Assembly: GCA_937981905.1 (NCBI GenBank)
Contig: CALJMY010000004.1
Coordinates: 1-40,431, forward strand
Origin: an uncultured Enterobacterales bacterium
Lineage (GTDB): Bacteria; Pseudomonadota; Gammaproteobacteria; Enterobacterales; Psychrobiaceae
Length of the DNA stretch: 40,431 bases
Direction: 5' to 3'
Shown: positions 15,109 to 20,770 of the stretch, piece after piece
Numbering within the stretch: position 1 is the stretch's first letter
Layout: every line of letters starts with the position of its first letter
The notes under the pieces: model-generated
What the model was told of the DNA's origin: nothing
The model's database searches: none
The model's input: only the letters and a program-made list of their open reading frames with translations
Position numbers and translations under genes: made by a program

Positions 15109-15536
15109 TTAATTTAATCGAATAGCATTTTAGCTAGCGTTTTTAATCCTATGCAATGGTTTTTCATTTTTTTATAAATATAAACCTTTAATGGTACATA
15201 TTTTTAAGTGTTCTACAACACAGCTACCCTAGGTATTACAATTCCAATAGACATTCCTTTTTAATTTTATAAGTATTTTTTCTTCAGGTTGTATTCCAAT
15301 ATTTATTAAAAATTGATGCTCTATAAATATTATTTAATTTCGTTCTTTCATTATTTATGCAAATATAATTAAAACTTTTATAGTAGTTTTTGCTTGTTGT
15401 AGCGTCTATATAATAAGTTCTTATTTAAATCGGTCATTTAGCGATGCAACCCATAGGATTATGTATTGATAAAATAAAATAATTTGTAGAAGTATCACCT
15501 TTAAAATAAAAATAATAAAGTGTCATTGGAGATACG
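15109..15536. other. Intergenic control region upstream of the sigma factor operon (428 bases)
   Basis: Very AT-rich with no credible ORF. A perfect -10-like TATAAT (15409-15414) lies 123 bases before the GTG start, but its -35 region (TTTTTG) is poor. This would fit a promoter that needs help, or one read by the encoded sigma factor. I see no recognised operator or riboswitch. Confidence 0.4.
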
Positions 15537-16136
15537 GTGAATTTAAAAAATAATAATAATAATAAACAAGAGACTACTGATAGCGAATCGATTGAAGGTG
15601 TTTTTAATAGATTAAAATTGTCATTAAAATACTTTATTTCTAGCTATGTCATTAATCCGCAAGATGTGGATGATGTATGCCAAGAAACTTTCTTACGTAC
15701 TTATAAAGTATCACTTGAGAAAGATATTCAATCCCCAAAATCATTTATGTTTCGTGTGGCAAAAAATTTAATTTTTTCCAACTTTAGAAAAGTATCTACA
15801 CAATTAAATGAATACGTTGAAGATATAGATATAGTTGATTCCACCATCGAAATAGAAGAGTTAGAAAGTAATGTTCTCGCACAAGAAAAATTAGGGGTTA
15901 TGTGTAAAGCTATTGCAGCTTTGCCTAATAAATGTCGACAGGTGGTTATTATGAGGAAAGTCTACGGGCTTTCGACTAAAGATATTGCAGTTAGAATGAA
16001 TCTTAGTACCAGTACAGTTAGTAATTACATTACCAGAGGTATGTGCGCTTATAACGACGCTATTACTCACTACAATAATGAAAATGAAAATGAAAATGAA
16101 AAAGATAGCCCTACTAAAAAAAGGGGAGTTTTATGA
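15537..16136 (+). CDS. ECF sigma factor, FecI-like
   Basis: A 199-residue extracytoplasmic-function sigma factor. Region 2 (about 25-90) contains Asp-Val-Asp-Asp-Val-Cys-Gln-Glu-Thr-Phe. Region 4 (about 125-175) contains Leu-Pro-Asn-Lys-Cys-Arg-Gln-Val and a helix-turn-helix around Leu-Ser-Thr-Lys-Asp-Ile-Ala. The start is GTG (15537) with GGAG five bases ahead. The N-terminus carries a run of five Asn from five AAT repeats, and the C-terminus an Asn-Glu repeat from four copies of a hexanucleotide. The stop overlaps the FecR start (ATGA). With FecR and an STN receptor downstream it forms a cell-surface signalling set: ligand binding at the outer membrane releases the sigma factor, which presumably transcribes this operon or the receptor. 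The inducing substrate is unknown. Confidence 0.93.
   Translation: MNLKNNNNNKQETTDSESIEGVFNRLKLSLKYFISSYVINPQDVDDVCQETFLRTYKVSLEKDIQSPKSFMFRVAKNLIFSNFRKVSTQLNEYVEDIDIVDSTIEIEELESNVLAQEKLGVMCKAIAALPNKCRQVVIMRKVYGLSTKDIAVRMNLSTSTVSNYITRGMCAYNDAITHYNNENENENEKDSPTKKRGVL
15549..15563 (+). repeat. (AAT)5 microsatellite in the sigma factor gene
   Basis: Five perfect AAT units encode five consecutive Asn at residues 5-9. Copy changes would alter length without shifting frame. Confidence 0.9.
16077..16100 (+). repeat. (AATGAA)4 hexanucleotide repeat near the sigma factor stop codon
   Basis: Four perfect copies of AATGAA encode an alternating Asn-Glu tail just before the overlap with the FecR gene. 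Six-base units keep the frame, so slippage would change tail length only. Confidence 0.92.
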
Positions 16137-17320
16137 GCACTACCATTAAAGGTTTTACGAATAAAACAATGATTAATCAAGAAGCTGCTCAATGGATTTT
16201 ACTCCTTGAAGATACACCTAAACTATCTAAAAAACAGGTGGAAGAACTTAATGCTTGGGTGTCAACGAGTAGTGTGCATAGAGAATGTTTGGAGTCTATG
16301 GTTCAGTCGTGGGGTGAGATGGATTTGTTGTCCAAAGTAATGCTTCCGCTTGAAGTCAAAAGTCCATCCATGATCTCTATAATGATGAGATATTTATTAA
16401 TGCCACTTGTTGCTTCATACCATATTATTTTAGGCTGTATACAACAGAGTAAAAAACTATTTAATGCCGCGATTTATACGCCAATATTGTTAAGTGGCTT
16501 AGTCGCTACTGTTATATTTATTGTACAACCGCTAGATGAAAACAATAATTTAATATTAAGCACGAATATGGGTGAACACCAAAGTCATACAATGCCTGAT
16601 GGTTCAATATTATGGTTAAACAGTAGTACAGCCATTAAAGTAAATTATACTGAAACCTTCCGCCGTATAAAACTGATGACTGGTGAGGCTCACTTTGAAG
16701 TAGCAAAAGATGCAACGAGACCTTTTGAGGTCTATGTAAATGATAGACTTGTTCGTGCAATAGGAACGGCTTTTTCTGTCCATAAGTTGAATAACAATAT
16801 TGAAGTGATTGTCAGTGAGGGTGTTGTAGAATTAGCTGTTATTGATGATATGTTAGTCGTAATTCCTGATGACGTGAAAGCAGTAAAAATTGTTGATGAT
16901 CTCAATAACAAAAAATCAGAGAAACGTAATAATGTTCCTGACAGTCTTGATAATAAGCCTACTAATATTAAAAAATTATTAGGTAAGCTGAGTGCTGGCC
17001 AGCGAATTTCAATTCCTATTGAAATTGAAAACATAAACGAAGTGGTTGAGCTTGATAGTAGTGAAATAACCCGATCACTTTCTTGGAGACAAGGAAAACT
17101 AGTGTTTGCTGGAGAATCATTAGAGGACGTTATTGAAGAAATAACTCGCCATACGACAGTTAAAATAGATGTGTTAGACCCTCAATTAAAATCAATGCGA
17201 ATTGGCGGGCAATTTCAATTAGGTGAAACGGATACTTTATTCTACGTTTTAGAGTCTGGCTTTGGTATTAAGGTCAATAAATTGAATAGCCGTCATGTAC
17301 AACTTTTGTTAAAAGAATAA
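16133..17320 (+). CDS. FecR-type anti-sigma/sigma regulator
   Basis: A 395-residue single-pass inner-membrane protein. The cytoplasmic N-terminus (about 1-75) begins with a DUF4880-like helix (Gln-Glu-Ala-Ala-Gln-Trp-Ile-Leu) expected to bind the sigma factor. A membrane helix lies at about 113-132. The periplasmic FecR domain (about 145-235) contains Pro-Asp-Gly-Ser-Ile-Leu-Trp-Leu-Asn and Gly-Glu-Ala-His-Phe-Glu-Val, followed by an STN-like C-terminal domain (about 320-395). The stretch between about 235 and 320 is longer and more charged than in typical FecR. The gene overlaps the sigma gene by four bases and ends three bases before the receptor ORF, so all three are almost certainly co-transcribed. 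It relays the receptor signal to the sigma factor. Confidence 0.9.
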   Translation: MSTTIKGFTNKTMINQEAAQWILLLEDTPKLSKKQVEELNAWVSTSSVHRECLESMVQSWGEMDLLSKVMLPLEVKSPSMISIMMRYLLMPLVASYHIILGCIQQSKKLFNAAIYTPILLSGLVATVIFIVQPLDENNNLILSTNMGEHQSHTMPDGSILWLNSSTAIKVNYTETFRRIKLMTGEAHFEVAKDATRPFEVYVNDRLVRAIGTAFSVHKLNNNIEVIVSEGVVELAVIDDMLVVIPDDVKAVKIVDDLNNKKSEKRNNVPDSLDNKPTNIKKLLGKLSAGQRISIPIEIENINEVVELDSSEITRSLSWRQGKLVFAGESLEDVIEEITRHTTVKIDVLDPQLKSMRIGGQFQLGETDTLFYVLESGFGIKVNKLNSRHVQLLLKE

Positions 17321-17323
17321 TAA

Positions 17324-20300
17324 ATGTACTTTTTGAGTAGTAGATTTATCTTATTCATACGTCTTATTAATCGACAGGTTAATAAGGCGTTTATATATAT
17401 TAGTTTATTAAGCTTTTTTTTGCTGACTCTAGAAGTATCAGCACAAGAAGATTTTAAGGTTACTCAGGTATATGATTTTAATATTCCAACTCAACCTTTA
17501 AATTTATCACTTAATGAGCTATCTGATATCGCTAAGATTTCATTTTTATTCCCTTATGACCTTGTCAATAATAAAAAAGGAAAGTCCGTTAGAGGTAAAT
17601 ACACGGTGCAACAGGCACTGACTGTATTGTTAAAAGATTCTGACCTTGAAGGAGAACTTTCTAAAAATAGTGCTTTTTTAATAAAGCCTTTTATCAAAAA
17701 AATAGGGAAAGAAGAAAAAATGAAATATCAAAAAACACTCCTAGCCACTATATTCTCATTAATGTTTACATCTACAACGAACGCTGAAGATGTAACGGTA
17801 GAAAAAGTAGAAGAAAAAAAAGTAGAAGTTATTGAAGTCACTGGTATTTTAGGAAGCTTAAAAAAAGCAGCGCTCCTTAAACGTACCGATGGCAGAATCA
17901 TGGATGCTATCGTTGCTGAAGATATTGGTAAATTACCAGATAACAATATTGCTGAAGCATTACAGCGTATTTCTGGTGTATCCATTAATACTGACTTTGG
18001 TGTTGGTAGTAGCGTATCTATTCGTGGTTTATCGCAAAATCGTGTGGAATTAAATGGTCGAACAACGATTGGTGATTCACGTGATGGTGTAAGTATGGAA
18101 GATTTTCCATCAAGTTTCTTAAAATCAGTATCTGTTATTAAATCGCCAACAGCTAACATGATTGAAGGGGCTTTAGGTGGAACTGTTAGTTTAGAAACTG
18201 TCCGTCCATTAGAATTTGAAGAGTTAACAGGAGCTGTTTCTTTAGATTTTGAATATGCTGATAAAACTGAGAATTGGGCGCCTATATTCAATGCTTCTGT
18301 TGGTAATAGCTGGGAGTTAGATAATGGCAGCAGTTTTGGTGCGATGTTCCTTGTGTCTTATCAAGATCGTGAGATTCGTCAAGATGAATACTCAAATCGT
18401 GTAAGAGTTATTCAAGAAGATGCTGGCGGTGCAGGTGGCATAGGTGAAGGTAATACGCCTAGCGGTGGTTTTGTCTTTAGGGATCAAAATAGAGTTGAGC
18501 AGTTTGTCGAAGATCGTGAACGTACGGCTTATAACCTCCAATTTGAATGGGCTCCAGCATCAGGTAATGGTAGTTTTTATGCTGATTTCGCCGTAACTGA
18601 TCGTGATGGTAAGCAATCAGGTAACTCTATTCTTGAAGTGGGTGGCGCTAGATCATTTGATGCTAATACAACTCAAGATAGTAATGGTCAGCTTAATAAT
18701 CATACTCTTACAGACGCTTTCGTTATCCCTAAAACATGGAGTAATTTTAGAACAACAGAATCATTCACTCATGCTTTAGGTGGTGAATGGTATGTTACCG
18801 ATAAAGTTAAGATCTCTGGTGAAGTCTCTATTGCTTCATCTGAAAGTTTTAATCCTACTTCTGAATTCAACCTGCGTCCTGTTAATAGAAGTAATTGGAC
18901 TGAGTGGGCAGAACAGTATGATCCTGCGACAATCGCTACAGATGTTGATGGTAATCCATTAAGAGATAGCGATGGTAATCTAACAGGAGAAACAATAACG
19001 TACGATAATGATTGTCGAGTAAACTTTGATTGTCGTCATACATCTGATGTGACTCTATCTCAAAATGGGAATAATCTACCGTCAGTCGTTTATTCTGATC
19101 CTAATGTCTATTTAGACCCTGAAAACCTAGCTTTACGTGCTTTTTGGTATGAAGGTAAATCTACTGACAACGAAGAGCTTGCAGCACGCTTTGATATAAC
19201 AGTTGATGAACCATTTGAGAGTGTTGAGTGGATTTCGTCCATAGACGCTGGTGTTCGTGTTACCGATCGTGAATACGAGTTTGACGAACAAACGTTCAGA
19301 TTTAATGATATATACAAAAATGCATTTACAGACGAAGGCACTGATGAAGAAAAACCAGCTACCTTCTGGATAGATGATTTTGAAGCATTATTCCCGGGTT
19401 CAATTGCTACAGTTAATCATAATAATTCTTTTGACCAAACAGGCCTAAGTGGACAAAACGATTTATTAACTTATCGTACTTATCGTGGTGATTTACTGTC
19501 TAATCCTGAAGCTACTTTTGATAGAGTTAATCAAATACTTGTAGGTACAAACTTAGAAAGAACAGGTGGTTTACATGATAATACTACGCTGATAGAAAAT
19601 TCTTTCCGTGATATTACAGAAGACACTGAAGCTATTTATGTTTCTGCTAATATAGAGTTTGATAACCTAACTGGTATCATTGGCGCACGTTATGTTACAA
19701 CTGACCTTCGTTCTGGTTTTATCGAAGATGGCCAATTTGCGGCTGACACTAATGATTATAGTGACTTTTTACCAAGTATAAATCTTAACTATTCATGGTC
19801 TGATGATACGCAAATACGTTTTGCTGCTGCGAAAGTTATGCGTCGTGCTGATTTTAATGATTTAAGTCCTTCACTTTTAATTGATGGGTTTAGTGTGTCA
19901 GCGACATCTGGTTCAGCAGATCTTGACCCACACCGTGCAACTCAATATGACTTATCTGTAGAGCATTATTATGGTGAGAGTAATATTGTATCGTTTGCAG
20001 TGTTTTATAAAGATATTGAATCATTCTTATCTCAAACGACTAATTGTGTTGCTAGTGGTCAAACATCAGGTCAAAACGTTACAGAATGGCAAAATATTTG
20101 TCATCTTGAAACGGCTGGCGTAGATAACGATAATCTTGTGTTATTTAATACATCACAATTTAGTGGATCTGCTGACCCTGAAGCTGCAGGTGAAAACGCT
20201 GTTGCTGCACAACGAGATCTTGGTCTAACGGGGATTAATACCGCTCGTACTTCAAACGGCGAAGATGGTTCAATTCAAGGTTTTGAAGCGTCTATTCAAC

Positions 20301-20770
20301 AAAGCTTAAATTTCTTACCTGGTTTAGGTTTCAGTGCCTACTGGACTTATGCCGATAGTGAGCAACCTAATGGAAGTACATTACTTGACGTATCTAGAAA
20401 TACCTTCAATGGTCAAATTTTCTGGGAAAAAGATGGATTTCAAGTTCGCTTAGCTTATAACTATCGTTCACGTTACTTAGCGACTGAAGATGAAAGACTA
20501 ATAGAAACTATTGGTGCTTTAGCGCTTGATAGCTCAACAGATGATGAAACAAGTCCGTTGTTTGATCCTACTTCGGGTAATAATTACCGTGAAGATCGAG
20601 GCCAGTTTGATTTTTCAGCAAGCTGGGATATCAATAAGAACGTTACGTTAGTGGCTAATGCAACTAATTTAACCGGTGAAGGACAAGAGTTTTCTACTGA
20701 GCTAGGTAGTTCATGGAAATTTACTGAAGCTGATAGTCGCTATACGTTTGGTATACGCACTAAGTTCTAA
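17324..20770 (+). CDS. TonB-dependent receptor with N-terminal STN domain and an internal second signal peptide
   Basis: A 1148-residue outer-membrane transporter. Order: signal peptide (1-40, cleavage after Val-Ser-Ala), STN domain (about 50-122), basic linker, then Met133 starting a second complete signal peptide (133-154, ending Thr-Thr-Asn-Ala). Next come a TonB box-like Val-Glu-Val-Ile-Glu-Val-Thr-Gly (167-174), a plug (about 185-300, Leu-Pro-Asp-Asn-Asn-Ile-Ala-Glu-Ala-Leu-Gln-Arg) and a beta-barrel ending in Phe. The part from Met133 (1016 residues) resembles the TIGR01782 group of marine carbohydrate-type receptors, which normally begin at such a signal peptide. The STN domain is what a FecR partner requires. 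A purine-rich stretch before Met133 (17720) could serve as a ribosome-binding site for a short form without the STN domain. The transported substrate cannot be inferred, because no enzyme genes are adjacent. Confidence 0.9.
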   Translation: MYFLSSRFILFIRLINRQVNKAFIYISLLSFFLLTLEVSAQEDFKVTQVYDFNIPTQPLNLSLNELSDIAKISFLFPYDLVNNKKGKSVRGKYTVQQALTVLLKDSDLEGELSKNSAFLIKPFIKKIGKEEKMKYQKTLLATIFSLMFTSTTNAEDVTVEKVEEKKVEVIEVTGILGSLKKAALLKRTDGRIMDAIVAEDIGKLPDNNIAEALQRISGVSINTDFGVGSSVSIRGLSQNRVELNGRTTIGDSRDGVSMEDFPSSFLKSVSVIKSPTANMIEGALGGTVSLETVRPLEFEELTGAVSLDFEYADKTENWAPIFNASVGNSWELDNGSSFGAMFLVSYQDREIRQDEYSNRVRVIQEDAGGAGGIGEGNTPSGGFVFRDQNRVEQFVEDRERTAYNLQFEWAPASGNGSFYADFAVTDRDGKQSGNSILEVGGARSFDANTTQDSNGQLNNHTLTDAFVIPKTWSNFRTTESFTHALGGEWYVTDKVKISGEVSIASSESFNPTSEFNLRPVNRSNWTEWAEQYDPATIATDVDGNPLRDSDGNLTGETITYDNDCRVNFDCRHTSDVTLSQNGNNLPSVVYSDPNVYLDPENLALRAFWYEGKSTDNEELAARFDITVDEPFESVEWISSIDAGVRVTDREYEFDEQTFRFNDIYKNAFTDEGTDEEKPATFWIDDFEALFPGSIATVNHNNSFDQTGLSGQNDLLTYRTYRGDLLSNPEATFDRVNQILVGTNLERTGGLHDNTTLIENSFRDITEDTEAIYVSANIEFDNLTGIIGARYVTTDLRSGFIEDGQFAADTNDYSDFLPSINLNYSWSDDTQIRFAAAKVMRRADFNDLSPSLLIDGFSVSATSGSADLDPHRATQYDLSVEHYYGESNIVSFAVFYKDIESFLSQTTNCVASGQTSGQNVTEWQNICHLETAGVDNDNLVLFNTSQFSGSADPEAAGENAVAAQRDLGLTGINTARTSNGEDGSIQGFEASIQQSLNFLPGLGFSAYWTYADSEQPNGSTLLDVSRNTFNGQIFWEKDGFQVRLAYNYRSRYLATEDERLIETIGALALDSSTDDETSPLFDPTSGNNYREDRGQFDFSASWDINKNVTLVANATNLTGEGQEFSTELGSSWKFTEADSRYTFGIRTKF
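17720..17722 (+). promoter_or_regulatory. Possible internal translation start of the receptor (Met133)
   Basis: The ATG at 17720 is in frame and preceded by GGGAAAGAAG. It opens a canonical signal peptide (Met-Lys-Tyr-Gln-Lys, hydrophobic core, Thr-Asn-Ala). Initiation here would yield a conventional 1016-residue receptor. Confidence 0.5.

Follow-up and report, generated by a model that had tools for sequence, protein, structure and literature searches.

Surface signalling is taught as the work of one receptor that performs both transport and signalling. The transducers with solved structures have no second signal peptide (SP) ahead of the TonB box, and the layout with a single SP and no hydrophobic segment between the STN signalling domain and the TonB box is a feature of these structurally known proteins, not a formal criterion. 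In FoxA of P. aeruginosa, the signalling domain is apparently cleaved off, CtpA being the proposed protease, and in its free state it protects FoxR (PMC11637429). As for two or internal SPs in TonB receptors, nothing relevant was found in the open-access literature, which was the scope of the search.

Here, we analysed a stretch of DNA of 40,431 nucleotides from a marine bacterium (the whole stretch is referred to as the window hereafter), in which one open reading frame (ORF) carries two SPs. Judging from the sequence comparisons described below, this is probably a nested dual-start gene, which would provide two forms of a TonB-dependent receptor, a long one that signals and a short one that does not.

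Gene organization and domain architecture

The features in and around the receptor gene are as follows.

15382–15407, + strand: P1, promoter-like AGTAG-N16-CGTCT upstream of fecI
15537–16136, + strand: fecI-like gene for an ECF sigma factor (PF04542, PF08281)
16133–17320, + strand: fecR-like gene for an anti-sigma regulator (PF04773, E 6.5e-19; PF16344, E 1.2e-5)
17324–20770, + strand: long ORF, SP1-STN-SP2-TonB-dependent receptor (1148 aa, ATG start)
17324–17443, + strand: SP1, residues 1–40, ending in VSA before QED (from the sequence; hydropathy 2.31)
17339–17364, + strand: P2, second AGTAG-N16-CGTCT, within the long ORF near its 5′ end (its L002 counterpart is at 2236–2261)
17359–17390, + strand: 14-pair hairpin overlapping P2 in the SP1-coding region, followed by a T/A-rich stretch (from a terminator-like scan)
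17459–17683, + strand: STN signalling domain, residues 46–120, with the PF07660 core at 73–121 (from profile, Pfam and predicted fold)
17705–17714, + strand: Shine-Dalgarno (SD)-like GGGAAAGAAG ahead of the internal start (anti-SD energy −5.9)
17720–17722, + strand: internal start codon ATG (Met133), a start codon in 37 of 38 double-SP homologues
17720–17785, + strand: SP2, residues 133–154, MKYQKTLLATIFSLMFTSTTNA followed by ED, with an A/E cleavage site after TNA
17720–20770, + strand: short ORF, a complete TIGR01782 receptor of 1016 aa (513.4 bits; cut-off 310)
17825–17845, + strand: TonB box EVIEVTG, residues 168–174 (from the sequence)

The order of SP1, STN, linker, Met133, SP2, TonB box and receptor, which the first-pass annotation had read from this ORF, was confirmed, and the same layout recurs in the homologue L002 and in 36 other loci. 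The STN was delimited to residues 46–120 by a purpose-built STN profile and to residues 73–121 by PF07660, which matched with E 2.4e-6 in the whole protein and, above the cut-off, with E 2.6e-7 when residues 1–132 were used alone. Its predicted structure (pLDDT of about 95, as compared with 54–63 around the SP2 helix in the same STN-to-TonB-box model) best matches the signalling domains of PupB (6ovm_B), FpvA, FoxA and FecA, and the match found in a sequence search against solved structures was limited to the STN. Between the STN and Met133 lies a hydrophilic linker of 12 residues, KPFIKKIGKEEK, whose codons contain GGGAAAGAAG. The remainder, residues 168–1148, belongs to the TIGR01782 (TonB-Xanth-Caul) subfamily with 512.7 bits against a cut-off of 310; the plug (PF07715, E 3e-14) and the β-barrel (PF00593, E 1.7e-33) were both found in the long ORF, and EVIE of the TonB box is invariant across five aligned receptors.

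The long ORF starts 3 nt past the fecR stop codon and has an alternative TTG start at 17333, which is present in L002 too. The C-terminus of the fecR-like product matches the PupR signalling domain (6ovk_R), and the TIGR02985 and FecI models score under their cut-offs on the fecI-like product. An Rfam scan of the window gave no match. The window gene thus has an STN between an SP and the TonB box, a plug and a barrel, and an adjoining ECF sigma factor gene and FecR gene, the latter with a periplasmic signalling domain; it departs from the single-SP layout in that SP2 lies at residues 133–154.

Occurrence among homologues

Seventeen relatives were found in the genome collection. One of them, L002 (Colwellia MAG-91), is 72% identical over the whole length and has the same operon, the double SP and the internal Met. 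The other 16 (44–57% identity) are devoid of the STN, and within their fetched flanks neither fecI nor fecR was found. Whether STN-less orthologues begin at Met133 was a check suggested by the first-pass annotation; the first residues of these 16 form an SP that corresponds to SP2 (read in all but L006).

To extend the set, a Pfam STN search across the order was tried and set aside: its matches were mostly ORFs of 690–740 aa, taken for secretins, so that profiles spanning the STN to the TonB box were used instead. The genomes covered were 394 from the order and 369 from the class, with two genera in addition. After the profile matches had been sorted by eye, 38 genes with an internal SP were obtained, counting the window gene and L002, from about eleven genus codes; the choice was made by eye, among the matches of a profile that had been seeded with genes of this kind. 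The set covers at least two receptor families unrelated to each other, namely TIGR01782 and a VGSR...PVPVDI-plug type, in addition to the divergent L079 and L086. The fecI and fecR genes adjoin nearly all double-SP genes of the first set, the exception being L066, where they were not found.

These data bear on the objection that an assembly or sequencing error had fused two genes. The window genome is indeed fragmented and 83% complete, but the identical in-frame join occurs in L002 and in independent genomes, including the single-contig G136 and G364, so that an artefact is ruled out for practical purposes. The double-SP architecture is neither an error of a metagenome-assembled genome nor unique to the window.

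Probable origin by fusion

In the receptor trees, double-SP genes are interspersed among STN-less ones, and the window gene and L002 nest among STN-less orthologues. The minimum numbers of changes on well-supported branches were four in the TIGR01782 tree and five in the VGSR tree; the trees, obtained by quick searching with no mixture model, do not distinguish gains from losses. On these sequence comparisons, an in-frame joining of a fecI-fecR-STN cassette to a receptor gene is supported, STN losses being the alternative. The proposal of a recent fusion therefore stands in part: the STN-less orthologues and the nesting in the tree favour the fusion, whereas the synonymous divergence between the window gene and L002, about 0.8 in the STN and 1.7 in the plug, indicates that it was not recent.

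A standalone STN gene directly ahead of a receptor, as expected of a split ancestor, was not established in the search. Three open frames of 200–253 aa that encode an STN-like domain but no receptor part were seen (L094, at 3530 of G703:C37, L095 and L096), L094 lying just ahead of a TonB receptor gene. They are other proteins or ambiguous; L094 has no continuous fusion.

Character and persistence of the second signal peptide

Three features were found for the internal hydrophobic segment. One is that it is indistinguishable in hydropathy from the SPs of plain receptors: the 10-residue values are 2.37 for the internal segments and 2.22 for the SPs of STN-less receptors (p = 0.18). Another is that the n-region is net positive, the h-region typical and an AxA-type site present in each of the 34 internal segments scored. 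The last is that 24 STN receptors without an internal SP score 1.19 (p = 6e-11), where the split into receptors with and without the SP had been made by eye ahead of the scoring. An STN-linker region without SP character, which the first-pass annotation had regarded as evidence against its reading, is thus characteristic of the classical transducers (24 scored) and is not found in the widespread double-SP subset. Between the window gene and L002, 16 of 24 residues at SP2 are conserved, as compared with 4 of 12 in the flanking linker.

The AxA-type sites and typical h-regions in all 34 segments are also what would be expected if only the long form were made and SP2 entered the membrane after the STN had crossed it, where signal peptidase I would cut. 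The products would be a separate STN, soluble or membrane-anchored, and a normal receptor, and a dual start could coexist with such processing. The first-pass annotation had raised this release of the STN from the long form as a possibility. The apparent proteolytic loss of the FoxA signalling domain points in the same direction, and the protection of FoxR by the free domain implies that a separated STN can act. Against this, a clade nested among double-SP relatives (L087, L089 and L210) has lost SP2, the start and the SD jointly while retaining the STN and the receptor. SP2 and the internal start are therefore dispensable for a transducer, and it has to be explained why they persist elsewhere.

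Internal start codon and Shine-Dalgarno sequence

Across the 38 double-SP genes, the internal codon is ATG in 33, GTG in three, TTG in one and ATC in one (L075). It is preceded by an SD sequence, as in AGGAGGAAGGGGAA-ATG (L086), GAGGAGATAGAA-ATG (L088) and GAGGAGAACCCC-ATG (L202); L079 has no SD ahead of its internal start. The SD is stronger than the synonymous expectation in 31 of 34 genes (Wilcoxon p = 6e-8, which, like the other pooled p-values, overstates independence because the homologues are related), the median anti-SD energy being −5.9 kcal/mol at the internal starts and −3.5 kcal/mol for synonymous recodings. In the first set, the internal start also surpasses the remaining in-frame ATGs of its gene in SD strength (p = 2e-6). 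In the window gene, the anti-SD energy is −5.9 at Met133 against a mean of −0.9 at its other in-frame ATGs. Taken alone, its SD is not above the synonymous/codon expectation (p = 0.35), so that the case for selection on the SD of this gene is carried by L002 (p = 0.02) together with the family.

The codons in front of the start were examined in pooled related pairs. The seven codons before it have the lowest amino-acid identity of any region, 0.37, and yet identical residues there are encoded by the same codon in 85 of 105 cases (81%). Elsewhere the rate is 42–47% (STN, 927/1985; SP2, 215/514; plug, 2763/6533). This combination of low amino-acid identity with high codon identity indicates selection at the nucleotide level for the internal start. 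When all 631 7-codon windows of cluster C5 are ranked by conservation, the top six are those at −10 to −5 relative to the internal start; for cluster C1, the 7-codon window preceding the start is conserved at 29 of 29. Clusters C3 and C6, taken singly, have too few informative codons and gave no significant constraint, and the pair of the window gene and L002 provides one informative codon in this test. For L074 against L077 and L076, dS is 0.0 in the linker versus 1.25–2.8 in the plug. The in-frame start is thus kept across diverged homologues, and its spaced SD is, at the family level, under nucleotide-level selection.

The processing described above requires neither a start codon nor an SD, nor any conservation of codons ahead of Met133, yet all of these were found, and we consider it quite improbable that cleavage of a sole long form explains the gene. 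The same data bear on whether SP2 and Met133 could be functionless leftovers of the fusion, the whole chain crossing as one transducer. Such an origin would fit the STN-less orthologues that begin at the matching SP, and relatives with a decayed SP2 do exist (L087, L089, L210 and L217). The start codon, the SD and SP2 have persisted, however, in spite of near-saturated synonymous sites, and in the two clusters that are informative, codon identity ahead of the start greatly exceeds the background of the gene; we give a relic little credence.

The starts of the long form present a different picture. Their SD is usually weak, the internal SD being stronger than most upstream candidates, and several double-SP genes are without any upstream ATG. 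Ahead of SP1 of L074 (G006), there is no ATG, and no ATG, GTG or TTG with an SD; the near-identical L077 has an ATG at the ATT of L074. The weak upstream SDs, together with the position of P2 within the long ORF, would suit a gene from which only the short form is made, the STN part being a decaying remnant or a 5′ untranslated region. This is very improbable: the STN retains its fold signature, is under purifying selection (dN 0.26, dS 0.80) and is in an open frame in all loci, and fecI and fecR nearly always accompany it. The proposal that the gene has two starts, one for a signalling and one for a non-signalling form, is well supported by the comparisons of starts, SDs and codons.

Promoter-like motifs and hairpin

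The window has two, and only two, copies of AGTAG-N16-CGTCT, against 0.08 expected, and L002 likewise has just two, against 0.01 expected, at 286–311 and 2236–2261 in the places orthologous to P1 and P2. The motif resembles the promoters of FecI/PvdS-type sigma factors and is a candidate sigma-FecI promoter with autoregulation. The copy within the long ORF suggests separate control of the short form; downstream of about 17370 up to the STN, there is no ATG or GTG, only an unsuitable TTG. The hairpin at 17359–17390 also forms in L002 (folds of −16.7 and −13.8 kcal/mol) and may be a terminator or attenuator of read-through from fecR.

When every locus was tested for 5+5-mers shared between the fecI and receptor promoters, the result was too noisy, shuffles often matching as well; only the exact spaced motif of the window and L002 and a GGAGG-N15-TCGTC pair in L071 stand out from it. 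Upstream of the STN, L065, L066, L068 and L071 have a common block, TGGAGGAAAAT...TCGTC, which in L071 is also found before fecI and which looks like the FecI-type promoter of this group. In L065, L066 and L068, the matching block precedes a usable long-form ATG, which would make the inner-promoter arrangement a refinement of the window's lineage. Another block, TAGAGGATTT-N11-CTGTTTA, is nearly invariant upstream of the STN in L072, L074–L077 and L080 (six genomes), in a stretch that has no clear start codons; it is probably a promoter whose translation in the open frame gives a conserved peptide, RGF.IL.CL.

Proposed expression of the two forms

That both proteins are made from the window gene is inferred from the sequence comparisons, in which the layout, its recurrence, the retention of the start codon, the strength of the SD, the codon constraint and the SP character were observed directly. 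A fecI-fecR-STN cassette would have been joined in frame to a receptor gene that retained its own start, ribosome-binding site and SP, and selection would then have preserved the internal start. Ribosomes starting at 17324 (or at TTG 17333), beside the fecR stop codon, would produce the long form, which SP1 would export and whose STN could contact FecR. Those starting at ATG 17720 by means of its own SD would produce the short form, to be exported by SP2 as an ordinary non-signalling TonB-dependent receptor. Translation of the long form may be coupled to that of fecR. A read-through transcript from fecI-fecR would serve the long form, and a transcript from P2, beginning near 17370 and thus past both long-form starts, would serve only the short form, with the STN region as a leader.

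The dual start may in addition be combined with the use of SP2 by signal peptidase in the long form. We regard this combination as possible, though on the unlikely side. If both mechanisms were true, the STN would be freed, or anchored in the inner membrane, next to FecR, and the transducer would be split genetically, with a signalling half and a transport half made in set proportions.

Comparison with known systems

The window gene shares SP1, the STN fold, the TonB box, the plug, the barrel and the ECF sigma and FecR-type neighbours with FecA, FpvA, PupB, FoxA and HasR. In contrast to the FecA-type transducers, a full SP with a start codon and an SD here lies between the STN and the TonB box. 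The STN-less TIGR01782 receptors (L003–L018) are the same receptor, 44–57% identical and starting at an SP that matches SP2, but unlike the window gene they have no STN and no adjoining fecI/fecR. The comparison suggests that receptors can gain signalling while retaining their own start. Several receptor lineages seem to divide the two roles by means of a second start, with a ratio of forms that would be tunable from one gene, and annotation with one start per gene would hide a product.

The cleavage of FoxA (PMC11637429) has in common with the window gene that the signalling domain may act apart from the receptor. The difference is that FoxA undergoes proteolysis as a single-SP transducer, whereas the window gene has a genetically encoded second start and SP. 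Such genes would be a natural test bed for the question raised by FoxA, whether contact with the anti-sigma factor across the periplasm requires the signalling domain to remain attached to the receptor. Bacterial in-frame internal starts with N-terminal proteoforms (e.g. PMC11005335) likewise let a single gene yield two products that share a reading frame. The type found in the window differs from the other internal starts in that the start opens with an export signal, drops a signalling domain and recurs in several receptor lineages. The parts and the pathway are known, and the nested layout with dual SPs and dual starts seems to be new so far as the open-access literature goes; we know of no other case in which an internal start with its own export signal removes a signalling domain.
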